Virus record (IMG/VR): IMGVR_UViG_3300028025_001086
Coordinates: 1 to 35,722 of that record
From: a virus
Direction: 5' to 3' (one strand)
DNA: 35,722 bases
Both the position numbers and the translations under genes were made by a program. The first letter of the stretch is position 1. Each line of letters opens with the position of its first letter. The notes beneath the pieces were generated by a model. The model had not been told where the DNA came from. It was given only the letters and a program-made list of their open reading frames with translations, and made no database searches. Positions 489 to 12,689 of the stretch are shown piece by piece.

Positions 489-507
489 TGAAAGGGTTAT
501 AATATGA
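489..507 (+). repeat. Duplicated translation-initiation region, copy 1
   Basis: The 19 bases TGAAAGGGTTATAATATGA include the ribosome-binding site and start codon of the gene at 504. They recur identically at 932-950 around the start of the gene at 947. The unit also contains TATAAT, so a promoter role cannot be excluded. Confidence 0.6.
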
Positions 508-920: not shown

Positions 921-931
921 AAATCAACTAA

Positions 932-950
932 TGAAAGGGTTATAATATGA
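932..950 (+). repeat. Duplicated translation-initiation region, copy 2
   Basis: Identical to 489-507 across 19 bases, again spanning the ribosome-binding site and ATG. The two genes it precedes do not look related, so the repeat is a control unit rather than part of a gene duplication. Confidence 0.6.
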
Positions 951-5852: not shown

Positions 5853-5876
5853 AGGTTAAAAAATGAAAGGCGTAAA

Positions 5877-6830
5877 ATGGTTATTGATTTAACAAAGAAC
5901 AATTCTACAGCAGCACTAAATAATTTTGATCCTGATATTTGTATTAAGTATTATGAAAAACTTAATCTTGATCATGGATCTCCAAGTCAGACAGCACAGT
6001 CAAATGCAGATTGGTTGGTAAACTACTGTTGGTTTGATCAAACTGACAGGCGGAACAAAAACATATCGTTCCGAATGAATGCTGGCGTATCTATCGGCAG
6101 AGCATCACAAAAATATGTTTCTAAATATATGTATGAAGCAGAAAAGAAAATGCTCATTGAGAAAAAAAATATAGATACTATCATCAAAGAAGAAATTGCC
6201 GAATACGACAAGTATCAACCTCATAATGAATTAGATAAAGAACAGCACGAAGATACAAAAAATTATCTTATGGATATGATTAAGATTACTTGCAAAGCAT
6301 TAGATGATCTTAAACTTGGAGATGAAGTAGCAAGTGAAAGATACTGCACGCATAAATTTAAAGAATTAGTTTTAGATAAGATTGGCAGAATAGATTACGA
6401 ACAAATGAATGGAACTAAACTTGTAGAGTTAAAGACCAAGCATAGATCAAAAAGAAAGTCAGATACTAAAGCAGGGTTTAGTTGGATCAAAGCATACTTA
6501 CCAAAACAACCAGATATAAATCATGTACGCCAGTGTGCTTTCTATTGGTATGCTACAAAAAAAATCCCTCACTTACTTTATGTTAATCAAGATAACTTTA
6601 ATGTGTTTACTCCTGACACTTGTGATTTGCTTACGCCTGAGTATATGGAATTTTTAATTCAACAAGATTTATTAGTTGATAAAATTCGTCAGAACATTGT
6701 GTACTTATGTCGTGGCTCGGCAAAAGATATGAGTAAATTAATTCCTCCACCAGACTTTTCAAGTTATATTTGGCGAGATGTACAGCCAGAGCTAATAAAA
6801 AAAGCAGCTAGCCTCTGGGACAATGTGTAG
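5877..6830 (+). CDS. PD-(D/E)XK exonuclease, YqaJ/Cas4-like (317 aa)
   Basis: The core is KIGRIDYE (D173) then KLVELKTKH (E185, K187), the D...E-x-K metal-binding set of the PD-(D/E)XK superfamily. HVRQCAFYWYAT (Q219, Y223) provides the Q-x-x-x-Y motif typical of RecB, Cas4 and lambda-exonuclease-like enzymes. About 170 helical residues precede it. It would resect double-stranded DNA ends to give single strands for the annealing protein encoded at 7273, forming a Red-type pair. First gene behind the rightward promoter; ribosome-binding site GAAAGG lies ten bases upstream. Confidence 0.8.
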   Translation: MVIDLTKNNSTAALNNFDPDICIKYYEKLNLDHGSPSQTAQSNADWLVNYCWFDQTDRRNKNISFRMNAGVSIGRASQKYVSKYMYEAEKKMLIEKKNIDTIIKEEIAEYDKYQPHNELDKEQHEDTKNYLMDMIKITCKALDDLKLGDEVASERYCTHKFKELVLDKIGRIDYEQMNGTKLVELKTKHRSKRKSDTKAGFSWIKAYLPKQPDINHVRQCAFYWYATKKIPHLLYVNQDNFNVFTPDTCDLLTPEYMEFLIQQDLLVDKIRQNIVYLCRGSAKDMSKLIPPPDFSSYIWRDVQPELIKKAASLWDNV

Positions 6831-6834
6831 AATC

Positions 6835-7005
6835 ATGGATATAAATTTTTATAAAAAAACTCATTATAAGATTATGGAAAGTTATAGGCATGATATTATG
6901 ATGCGTAAAATTAAAGAGAGAGAAGATAAAGAATTTAGAAAATTATTTATAAAAATATCTTCAATTATAATTGCAATCGTACTGTTAGTAACAGTAGTAT
7001 TTTAA
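6835..7005 (+). CDS. Small C-tail-anchored membrane protein (56 aa)
   Basis: The C-terminal 20 residues (IKISSIIIAIVLLVTVV) form a hydrophobic membrane segment behind a strongly charged helical cytoplasmic part (MMRKIKEREDKEFRK). The ATG at 6835 avoids overlap with the exonuclease; an in-frame ATG at 6823 would add four residues with an eight-base overlap. Neither has a clear ribosome-binding site. Function unknown. Confidence 0.55.
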   Translation: MDINFYKKTHYKIMESYRHDIMMRKIKEREDKEFRKLFIKISSIIIAIVLLVTVVF

Positions 7006-7008
7006 TAA

Positions 7009-7215
7009 ATGAAAGTAATTCTTACAATAATACTAATGAATGGCACAGTCTATAATTTAGGCTATGAAATTGATTCTTATTCTGCAAGAATATGTGATAA
7101 GTTATTTGATAAAGTAACTTACATAGGTAAGGCAAGTGGCAAGAATAAGTATGGTACTTTCTATAAAGGTAAGGAAGTATTTGCTCACTCTTGTTCATAC
7201 GAGAAAAAAGCATGA
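7009..7215 (+). CDS. Hypothetical protein (68 aa)
   Basis: Starts four bases after the preceding stop. The product begins MKVILTIILMNGTVYNLGY; the hydrophobic start is too short and broken to be a convincing signal peptide. The C-terminus reads FAHSCSYEKKA. No family recognised. A 12-base repeat, TGCTCACTCTTG, at 7183 recurs at 7229 just downstream. Confidence 0.6.
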   Translation: MKVILTIILMNGTVYNLGYEIDSYSARICDKLFDKVTYIGKASGKNKYGTFYKGKEVFAHSCSYEKKA

Positions 7216-7272
7216 TTGAGAAATACGAGTATGCTCACTCTTGCACAATAGATAAAACAACTAAAGGAAACA

Positions 7273-7878
7273 ATGAAAGAAAAAATAAAACAAGTTAATG
7301 ATTTGTGTGCAGCCAATGGCTCATACTTAAATCAACATGGAAAGAAAACAGTATCAGCTTGGAGTAAGATTAAATACTTTAGAGAATTGTTTGGTACTGA
7401 ATATGGAATAAATTGTGTAATACAAGAACACTCAGATCGTTATGTTATAATGAAATGTATTATAACTAAATCAGATCCTGAACATATTGTAGCAACTGGT
7501 TACTCAAAACAATACCGAGATAAACCAGGCTACTTAGAGATTGCTGAAACATTTGCAATCACACGAGCTTTATCATTCATGGGTATTCTTCTTGAAGATA
7601 TAACTTCAAAGGAAGAGTATGAGGAATTAGATATTCCAATACAGCCTATGAATGGAAAAGATACTACATCAAACAATATAAATTATGATGATAGTATAAT
7701 TAATGAACTGACGAAGAAGATAGCATTTGCTCATCACACAGCGAAACTAGATTTCCTTTGGAGAGCAAACAAAGATCTTCTTAATCAGATAAAAATAAAA
7801 GATCTCGCAACTTACAATTCTATCTTGCAAAGATTTAATAGTAAGCGTGATGAGATCACAACTCAAAATGAGGTATAA
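7273..7878 (+). CDS. Erf/Rad52-like ssDNA-annealing protein (201 aa)
   Basis: The segment EIAETFAITRALSFMGI (residues 89-105), with TSKEEYEEL after it, matches the helix of Erf/Sak3/Rad52-like phage annealing proteins (usually E-T-x-A-x-x-R-A-L-x-x-x-G followed by a S-x-E-E motif). YSKQYRDKPGYL before it fits the preceding strand-turn. The C-terminal 70 residues are variable, as in the family. Together with the exonuclease at 5877 it makes a two-component recombinase used for replication-coupled repair or concatemer formation. AAAGGA precedes the start. Confidence 0.75.
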   Translation: MKEKIKQVNDLCAANGSYLNQHGKKTVSAWSKIKYFRELFGTEYGINCVIQEHSDRYVIMKCIITKSDPEHIVATGYSKQYRDKPGYLEIAETFAITRALSFMGILLEDITSKEEYEELDIPIQPMNGKDTTSNNINYDDSIINELTKKIAFAHHTAKLDFLWRANKDLLNQIKIKDLATYNSILQRFNSKRDEITTQNEV

Positions 7879-8223
7879 ATGAACGAGCCGATCAAAGACA
7901 AGATATATTTAAATCTTGTCCCAAACGTAAATAAAAAACCAGGTGATAACCAACCAGTATTAGTAGCACCTAATTCTCCAAAAGCTCCAGAAGGAAAGAA
8001 TTGGAAGATGAATGTGAATATTGGTGGATCATGGTTTGATTTTTGCGGATTTGATGGAACAGATATTGAAGGTAATCCAACAGGTGGATACACAATTATC
8101 TTAACCAAAAAAGATGCAGCACAAGCAACAGCAGGAGCAAATAAACAACCTGGATTTAAAGCTAGTGGATTTCAAAAGAAACCATTTACAAGCAATAAGT
8201 CTTTCGGTAATAGACAATACTAA
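7879..8223 (+). CDS. Hypothetical, possibly ssDNA-binding accessory (114 aa)
   Basis: Starts immediately after the annealing-protein stop. Residues about 35-75 (EGKNWKMNVNIGGSWFDFCG and the strand GGYTIILTK) suggest a small beta barrel, while the C-terminal third is disordered, glycine/phenylalanine/asparagine-rich (KKPFTSNKSFGNRQY). Single-strand-binding proteins have such a barrel plus flexible tail, and the location fits, but the acidic tip is absent. Assignment is weak. Confidence 0.6.
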   Translation: MNEPIKDKIYLNLVPNVNKKPGDNQPVLVAPNSPKAPEGKNWKMNVNIGGSWFDFCGFDGTDIEGNPTGGYTIILTKKDAAQATAGANKQPGFKASGFQKKPFTSNKSFGNRQY

Positions 8224-8245
8224 TAGCTACGTAAGTAACTATTAC

Positions 8246-8310
8246 CTCTATCCCTAGGGTTTTCATCAGGCAGTCATGCCTACCCTTTCATTGTTTCCCT
8301 AGGGGTAGAG
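8246..8310 (+). ncRNA. Structured RNA element with alternative pairings
   Basis: CTCTATCCCTAGGG (8246-8259) pairs with CCCTAGGGGTAGAG (8297-8310) over 14 bp, with one G-U pair in the rightward mRNA. Inside, AGGCA-GTCA-TGCCT forms a tetraloop hairpin at 8268-8281. A competing helix AGGGT (8256-8260) with ACCCT (8282-8286) would stack on that hairpin and break the outer stem. No U-run follows, so it is not a plain terminator. It sits in the 109-bp gap before the gene at 8333 and could be a switch, processing site or stability element. Confidence 0.55.
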
Positions 8311-8332
8311 TAAAAAACAGAAAAGGATATAC

Positions 8333-8623
8333 ATGGTAAGCAAGTCAGACTTCATTGATATTGAAGAAAAAATTCAGAAAAGAATTATAGAAGAACGTAA
8401 TCAAGAGTATGGAGATTACCAAGAGAACTTTGCATTACTTGCTGAACTGTTCTCTATAGTTCTATTTAATAAAATTAAAGTAGCATTACAACCAGAAGAT
8501 GTTGGTCATATAATGATGGCACTTAAATTATATCGCTGCACTAAGAAATATAAAGCAGATAGTTATGATGATCTATCTATCTATTGTAAGATGACTAAGC
8601 AAGTTAGACAGAATAAAAAATAA
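8333..8623 (+). CDS. DUF6378-like conserved phage protein (96 aa)
   Basis: The pattern ERNQEYGDYQENFALLAELF, then HIMMALKLYRCTKKYKADSY and DDLSIYCKM, matches a common small all-helical phage family (as I remember, DUF6378) with a MazG-like four-helix look. No pyrophosphohydrolase activity can be claimed. The ribosome-binding site AAAAGGA lies about seven bases upstream, right after the RNA element at 8246-8310, so its translation could be controlled by it. Its stop overlaps the next start as TAATG. Confidence 0.7.
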   Translation: MVSKSDFIDIEEKIQKRIIEERNQEYGDYQENFALLAELFSIVLFNKIKVALQPEDVGHIMMALKLYRCTKKYKADSYDDLSIYCKMTKQVRQNKK

Positions 8624-8823
8624 TGAAGGTTGTAAGATTAAAAAAGTGTGAATGTTATTTTACTTATGTAGAAGAATTTGACACAGCAGAACATGCCATT
8701 GATCCTGATAAACGAGGTTTGTTTATTAAAGTTAAGGTTGGAGCAATAAGAGTAAACTCAGTAAGTATAAGACAGAAAGAAGATAAATATGATGAACATA
8801 AAGCAGCTAAAGGAACAAATTAA
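8623..8823 (+). CDS. Hypothetical protein (66 aa)
   Basis: Translationally coupled to the preceding gene. The product starts MKVVRLKKCECYFTYVEEFD, looks mainly beta in the first two thirds, and ends in a charged helix. Its last 35 bases overlap the DnaA-domain gene. No family recognised. Confidence 0.6.
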   Translation: MKVVRLKKCECYFTYVEEFDTAEHAIDPDKRGLFIKVKVGAIRVNSVSIRQKEDKYDEHKAAKGTN

Positions 8824-9298
8824 ATTAAGATACACTACTAATGTGTATGCAAACTTAACAGATAAAGAACGTAAACTTTATCGTTTAGGTTTTAAGACTG
8901 GATATAAATTAGCCAGAGAGTTTTTTAAAAAGCATGTTGTTACTAAACAGAATACAGTTTTTAAAGAAGTTGTTAAGTATGTAACAATCAATGATGTTGT
9001 AGTGCCTGAGAATGTAAAAGAAATGTTATCTATTGTTGCCAATCAACTTAGCATAGATGTTAATGAAATACTTACTAAGACTAGAATACAATCAGCTGTG
9101 ATTGCACGATCCATTTTAATTAATGTTCTTAGAGATAAGTACGCAATGCCATTTACAAAGATAGGTGTGCTACTTGGCAATCGTGATCATACAACTATGA
9201 TCCATCATGTTAGAATGAAAATGAATAAGGAACATTTCTGGAAACCAGATCATATTATCTGGAACAGATATAAATATGTGATGGATAATATTAAGTGA
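8789..9298 (+). CDS. Stand-alone DnaA domain IV protein (169 aa)
   Basis: Residues 73-145 match the DNA-binding domain IV of the bacterial initiator DnaA: an N-terminal helix, then QSAVIARSILINVLRDKY, IGVLLG and the signature NRDHTTMIHHVR (131-142), which in DnaA contacts the 9-mer DnaA box. No ATPase domain (Walker motifs) is present; residues 1-70 are a basic helical extension. It could recruit or titrate host DnaA at phage boxes, or act as a repressor. Candidate targets are the boxes at 12622-12679. The start may be 8789 or 8792 (tandem ATGs). It ends base-to-base against the convergent gene at 9299. Confidence 0.85.
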   Translation: MMNIKQLKEQIKLRYTTNVYANLTDKERKLYRLGFKTGYKLAREFFKKHVVTKQNTVFKEVVKYVTINDVVVPENVKEMLSIVANQLSIDVNEILTKTRIQSAVIARSILINVLRDKYAMPFTKIGVLLGNRDHTTMIHHVRMKMNKEHFWKPDHIIWNRYKYVMDNIK

Positions 9299-12610: not shown

Positions 12611-12638
12611 CCTATAGTGGTTGTGGATAAAAAGTCAA
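12611..12638 (-). promoter_or_regulatory. Leftward promoter of the lysis operon
   Basis: Minus-strand TTGACT (12638-12633) and TATAGG (12616-12611) are 16 bp apart. A perfect DnaA box occupies 12622-12630 in the spacer, so binding of DnaA or of the phage DnaA-domain protein would block the promoter. It would allow lysis genes to be transcribed separately from the rest of the late genes. Confidence 0.55.
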
Positions 12639-12679
12639 TTATAAGATGTATGTGGATAGCTAGGTATTCACTATCCACA
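12622..12679. other. Cluster of three DnaA boxes, candidate origin
   Basis: TGTGGATAA at 12622-12630 is a perfect DnaA box (TTATCCACA) on the minus strand. TGTGGATAG at 12651-12659 and CTATCCACA at 12671-12679 are one-mismatch boxes forming a perfect nine-base inverted repeat. AT-rich DNA with direct repeats lies about 240 bp away. The phage encodes a DnaA domain IV protein. Origin function is inference. Confidence 0.55.
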
Positions 12680-12689
12680 CAGGTATTAT

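Follow-up and report, generated by a model that had tools for sequence, protein, structure and literature searches.

In phage T7, intercistronic RNase III sites are hairpins located between operon genes, just before a ribosome-binding site. The alpha-r14 or "cuckoo" small RNAs of Rhizobiales, including NfeR1 of Sinorhizobium, carry anti-Shine-Dalgarno loops (PMC10746234); they are separate bacterial small RNAs with three hairpins, each bearing the sequence CCUCCUCCC. In Candidatus Pelagibacter ubique, cis-regulatory motifs associated with rpsB, rpsL, ffh and methionine have been described (PMC2704228). HTVC010P-type pelagiphages are abundant and widespread in the sea and have known freshwater relatives (PMC10504331, PMC6811365).

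The DNA analyzed here (the window) is a virus record of 35.7 kb (35,722 nucleotides), within which an RNA element of an HTVC010P-type pelagiphage was distinguished. Freshwater SAR11 phages related to this type have been described (PMC6811365), and the set of the window's closest relatives is labelled "freshwater" below. The element lies in a plus-strand operon (5877-9298) encoding, in order, a nuclease, an annealing protein, a 114-amino-acid (aa) protein, a DUF6378 protein, a small ORF and a DnaA_C protein. This gene order is common to the window and the HTVC010P-type pelagiphages Lederberg, HTVC203P, HTVC010P, Skadi and HTVC034P.

Like the T7 RNase III sites, the element consists of hairpins between phage operon genes before a ribosome-binding site, but it occurs once per genome, has a shorter stem and contains a conserved single-stranded pyrimidine motif. 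With the alpha-r14 RNAs it shares an unpaired, ultraconserved anti-Shine-Dalgarno motif, sequence-variable stems and predicted pairing with ribosome-binding sites. It has, however, a single CCCUUUC loop, is located in a phage operon mRNA and is predicted to pair with targets of the same phage; its loop number, its motif and its setting in a phage mRNA place it outside that family. The Pelagibacter motifs are likewise conserved structured RNAs recognized by covariation in the SAR11 host group, but they belong to host genes. The features of the locus are as follows.

5877-6830, plus strand: first gene of the operon, a nuclease in annotated relatives
7879-8223, plus strand: gene of the 114-aa protein (beta-rich core, disordered tail), the constant upstream neighbour of the element
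8221-8244, plus strand: P0, an A/U-rich hairpin (6 bp + 3 bp) starting at the UAA that ends the upstream gene
8246-8259, plus strand: P1 5′ arm, CUCUAUCCCUAGGG, supported by the minimum-energy fold and covariation
8256-8260, plus strand: 5′ side of an alternative helix (partner 8282-8286), transient in simulated transcription and without covariation
8260-8263, plus strand: U-run 3′ of the P1 5′ arm, with 3-9 U in relatives of all groups
8268-8281, plus strand: P2, inner hairpin AGGCA-GUCA-UGCCU
8282-8289, plus strand: conserved unpaired ACCCUUUC, the anti-Shine-Dalgarno motif, with its CCUUUC core at 8284-8289
8290-8296, plus strand: AUUGUUU, the variable 3′ flank of the loop motif
8297-8310, plus strand: P1 3′ arm, CCCUAGGGGUAGAG, supported by the minimum-energy fold and covariation
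8321-8326, plus strand: AAAAGG ribosome-binding site of the downstream gene
8333-8623, plus strand: DUF6378 gene (PF19905, E = 8e-16), the usual but not obligatory downstream neighbour
8789-9298: gene of the phage's DnaA_C protein

The initial annotation, made from the window alone, described a 14-bp stem with one G-U pair around a tetraloop hairpin, and this is indeed the minimum-energy fold, P1 pairing 8246-8259 with 8297-8310 and P2 (5 bp) pairing 8268-8272 with 8277-8281. Its energy is −31.8 kcal/mol, compared with −19.6 ± 3.2 kcal/mol for shuffled sequences, none of which (0/200) folded as well (z = −3.8). No second copy of the P1 inverted repeat was found elsewhere in the window. The layout common to all groups is the 5′ arm, a U-run, the unpaired (UU or A)CCCUUUC, further U residues and the 3′ arm. 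P2 varies in its placement, being located 5′ of the motif in freshwater phages and around it in the HTVC010P and HTVC034P types, and absent from Lederberg types.

The hairpin P0, overlooked in the initial annotation, covaries as well. Marine phages have equivalent hairpins of other sequence in the same place, and in every group the upstream gene's stop codon lies within P0 or at its start; in several marine phages this codon sits inside the P0 loop.

Neither strand showed an intrinsic terminator at the element, the sequence 3′ of P1 being A-rich in the window, and promoter-like matches were no commoner than in shuffled sequences; a separate small RNA product is therefore not evident. For Skadi-1, no terminators, tRNAs or "ribonucleotide switches" were found, and no phage RNA polymerase was found in the Skadi study (PMC10504331).

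Compensatory changes across relatives, which the initial annotation had set as the test of its stems, are abundant in P1. In the freshwater alignment (27 sequences) 93.7% of the cells are paired and 18 of the 28 pairs have changed on both sides, i.e. 4/9 in P0, 9/14 in P1 and 5/5 in P2. The covariation score is 0.428, against 0.183 ± 0.012 for shuffles and at most 0.097 when the alignment was slid. In two marine sets 5/12 and 8/12 pairs of P1 show double changes. Over the three alignments P1 comprises 980 Watson-Crick, 170 G-U and 0 A-C cells. All these counts are without kinship correction, but from one main group to another the stem letters are almost entirely different. The G-U/A-C asymmetry indicates that the plus strand folds, as RNA.

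Relatives of the locus were gathered with two kinds of query, the DUF6378 protein (from the window, HTVC203P and Lederberg) and the upstream protein (from the window and HTVC034P). The element is present in 416 of 418 loci, 9-48 nt 3′ of the stop codon of the upstream gene, which was used as the anchor. One locus (L200) and its twin contain the element sequence and were flagged because the stem finder picked another stem. The two exceptions (L041 and L346) represent one contig, in which a clean deletion starts inside the P1 5′ arm and stops just short of the start codon; it may be either real or an assembly collapse. Among isolates, HTVC010P, HTVC034P, HTVC203P, Skadi, Lederberg and HTVC204P carry the element, as does the locus of Skadi-5, which is near-identical to that of Skadi-1. 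Every genome examined has exactly one copy. Scanning 2.1 Mb for the stem plus loop yielded 391 elements, 390 of them at the expected site, the remaining one (L245) being also genuine. When the divergent upstream protein of HTVC204P was used as a query, all nine further loci had the element. Different element sequences number 92, and their P1 stems, of 11-15 uninterrupted bp, have 51 different arm pairs.

Two further scans extended to other sequences. A 15-base pattern search of viral contigs returned 55 loci, of which the 35 without a DUF6378 relative look like chance 15-mer hits. A DUF6378 scan of bacterial and archaeal genome contigs returned one relative, in a "Woesearchaeota" MAG (L460). 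This contig has 17456 bases, the same as viral contig IMGVR_UViG_2785511133_000004 (L224), and because of this equal size it is probably a mis-binned pelagiphage.

A specific link to the DUF6378 gene, suggested by the initial annotation, was not borne out: the constant partner of the element is the 114-aa gene before it. A methylase-like gene in L001 separates DUF6378 from the element, which retains its ribosome-binding site; six other loci (L240, L393, L420, L421, L452 and L454) have insertions before DUF6378 with the element still beside the upstream gene, and in HTVC204P another gene replaces DUF6378 while the element is kept. The point 3′ of the element looks like an insertion hotspot. In HTVC010P (locus L084, 2974-3271) the DUF6378 annotation is split over two overlapping ORFs, and the match likewise comes in two pieces; the gene may be frameshifted, whereas the RNA element is intact.

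Searches against Rfam 15 at the gathering threshold gave no match in the window, HTVC010P, HTVC203P, Lederberg or HTVC034P, and relaxation to E ≤ 10 gave matches at chance level. No description of the element was found in the literature searched. The initial view of a candidate novel RNA in a replication operon thus holds, in that it is a conserved structured RNA with no Rfam match, and we regard this near-universal, single-copy element of the HTVC010P group as a new RNA family.

It had also been proposed that a second helix, mutually exclusive with the long stem, makes the element a two-state switch. The complementarity itself is present (AGGGU at 8256-8260 and ACCCU at 8282-8286), but the long stem is not excluded by it: when forced, the second helix displaces only the top 4 of the 14 P1 pairs, leaving 10 bp, and raises the energy from −31.8 to −26.7 kcal/mol, a cost of 5.1 kcal/mol. 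Its equilibrium probability is 0.0003. In simulated transcription it reached a probability of about 0.95 with the transcript end at 8288-8300 and was lost once the 3′ arm emerged. Its covariation score (0.088) equals that of shuffled letters (0.088), its CCCUUUC side being near constant while P1 changes. The conserved, mutually exclusive helices of a riboswitch or two-state attenuator were thus not found, the second helix having no covariation and a negligible equilibrium probability.

The loop (U/A)CCCUUUC is nearly invariant while the stems and P2 vary, and is left unpaired by the folds predicted for each group. Its CCCUUUC is the complement of GAAAGGG, and the loop fits GAAAGG(G) ribosome-binding sites. 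In the window, the sole plus-strand GAAAGGG sites are the ribosome-binding sites of two small genes, starting at 504 and 947. Among 15 duplexes tested in the window these two were the best, followed by the first gene of the operon in which the element lies. The three sites and their predicted duplexes with the loop are listed below.

490-496, plus strand: GAAAGGG ribosome-binding site of presumed early gene 504-920, −17.5 kcal/mol
931-941, plus strand: AAUGAAAGGGU region, ribosome-binding site of presumed early gene 947-1135, an 11-nt perfect complement of loop positions 8282-8292, −17.6 kcal/mol
5865-5870, plus strand: GAAAGG ribosome-binding site of the first gene of the operon (5877-6830), −14.9 kcal/mol

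The association of this class of site with the presumed early block, so called from its position and small genes and not from expression, is seen across the group. In four annotated isolates, GAAAGG or AAAGGG precedes the start of 16 of the 29 genes of the block and 5 of the 220 other genes (P = 1.6e-13), whereas ribosome-binding sites in general show no clear enrichment (22/29 vs 128/220, P = 0.07). The window and 21 viral contigs (22 genomes, with predicted genes) show the same: GAAAGG-type sites precede 49 of 114 early-block genes and 75 of 1036 others (P = 9e-22), some of the matches scored as "other" apparently belonging to blocks split across the ends of a permuted contig. In this set a 4-base site of any kind is likewise commoner in the early block (103/114 vs 638/1036), which weakens the contrast. 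HTVC019P and HTVC011P, pelagiphages of other groups that share the host and have no element, showed GAAAGG-type sites at none of 102 starts.

GAAAGG also matches well the tail of alphaproteobacterial 16S rRNA, which contains CCUUUC. The early genes may therefore use it simply as a strong site, and the loop, judged by its sequence, may be a mimic of the 16S tail.

We propose that the element is an mRNA-embedded anti-Shine-Dalgarno RNA that silences phage early genes, and assign to this reading a probability of about one in two. In this scheme the structured RNA would sit in the mRNA of the replication operon, where the stable P1, its letters free as long as they pair, would present a loop exposing CCCUUUC. 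At the small early genes, the loop would most probably pair with GAAAGG(G) ribosome-binding sites and block translation; the operon's own first gene would perhaps also be a target. Being part of the replication operon, the element would accumulate at the onset of replication and so help to shut off the early genes. Among readings that account for an invariant loop carried by a stem of free sequence, this is the simplest. We infer that the pairing occurs, that the small genes form an early block, that the outcome is repression rather than activation, and that the RNA would act either inside the mRNA or after processing. The timing of gene use in HTVC010P-type pelagiphages is little known, and silencing of early genes by the loop, should it occur, would provide an early-to-replication switch at the level of translation in phages without a polymerase of their own.

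Some phages appear to match their own loops beyond the core. Long perfect matches to the own loop are of 16 nt in HTVC204P, 13 nt in Lederberg and two contigs (G001 and G020) and 12 nt in another (G013). The altered loop of G020, UUUUCCUUUC, is accompanied by targets altered to match it (AAAGAAAGGAAAA and GAAAGGAAAA), and that of G009, GCACCUUUC, by a matching GAAAGGUGC. The own loop has a modest advantage over the loops of other phages (P = 0.045), with a permutation test giving P = 0.0002 without kinship correction and P = 0.085 inside the freshwater set; in several genomes (G003, G006, G016, L541 and L546) the own loop is not among the high-ranking ones. These comparisons are suggestive of loop-target specificity beyond the core. 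A broader claim, that in HTVC010P-group phages one structured RNA within the message of the replication operon serves as a trans-acting antisense switch silencing an entire set of early genes at translation, with a shared loop-to-site code that has coevolved with its targets, is offered tentatively, as a possibility that we would not favour at present.

Tandem hairpins in operon messages may also determine RNA processing or stability. The operon mRNA could be cut between P0 and P1, as at the RNase III sites of T7, with P0 protecting the upstream message at its 3′ end and P1 the downstream message at its 5′ end. The intergenic position within the operon, the two hairpins with their A/U-rich spacer, the freedom of the stem sequences and the retention of the upstream gene while the next gene varies would all suit such a role. 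Processing alone, however, leaves the kept CCCUUUC and the U-runs unexplained; moreover, P1 has just 11-15 bp and phages of the Lederberg and HTVC203P types lack a second stacked stem. We consider this explanation unlikely, though it is the foremost of the alternatives.

Phage T4 gp32 controls its own message by binding to it, and by analogy the element could be an operator at which a single-strand-binding protein, e.g. the 114-aa product, occupies the pyrimidine-rich loop and controls translation of the neighbouring genes. The 114-aa gene is the constant neighbour, the loops are pyrimidine-rich, and the protein is predicted to have a beta-rich core and a low-complexity tail with an aromatic last residue, which resemble those of ssDNA-binding proteins. 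Its structure model (pLDDT 75) gave, however, no significant Foldseek fold match, and the protein has no match in Pfam, PHROGs or PDB sequences, so that its assignment as an SSB is unsupported by any of these searches. The element is also located 3′ of the 114-aa gene, not before it. An operator of this kind seems distinctly improbable.

A local switch would operate if the P1 5′ arm were unavailable, the loop (CCUUU...GUUGU) then pairing with the ACAA...AAAGG further downstream and hiding the next ribosome-binding site. With the 5′ arm removed, this pairing is predicted in several freshwater phages and similarly in Lederberg, and L001 has kept that site with the element despite its insertion. 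P1 is nevertheless far more stable, no factor that opens it is known, the linker is too short for a pseudoknot while P1 is intact, and phages of the HTVC203P, HTVC010P and HTVC034P types have no such site 3′ of the element. We judge this mechanism very unlikely.

Three further ideas were set aside, the first of them surviving as part of the weak local-switch alternative above. A pseudoknot between the loop and the downstream A-rich tail or ribosome-binding site has complementarity in freshwater and Lederberg types, but the linker cannot span a P1 of 12-15 bp and the partner is absent in HTVC203P types. An ENE-like triple helix of the U-runs with the A-rich tail also suffers from too short a linker, and HTVC203P-type tails do not provide it. 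The resemblance to boxA/nut-type antitermination is loose and was drawn by eye only.

A single-stranded DNA hairpin acting in replication, as a priming or nicking site, would agree with the location in a replication operon, with a hairpin on one strand and with the rolling-circle-like replication suggested for phage Skadi (PMC10504331), but the 170 G-U and 0 A-C cells of P1, the constantly adjacent start codon and the presence of DnaA-box-like repeats elsewhere in the window (12622-12679) make it extremely improbable.

Across the whole window, the count of DnaA-box-like 9-mers is not above chance. Three of them lie within 60 bases in region 12622-12689, namely one TTATCCACA and two copies of CTATCCACA, which makes this region a putative replication origin, where the phage's DnaA_C protein would act. 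Both CTATCCACA copies form an inverted repeat with arms at 12641-12659 and 12671-12689.
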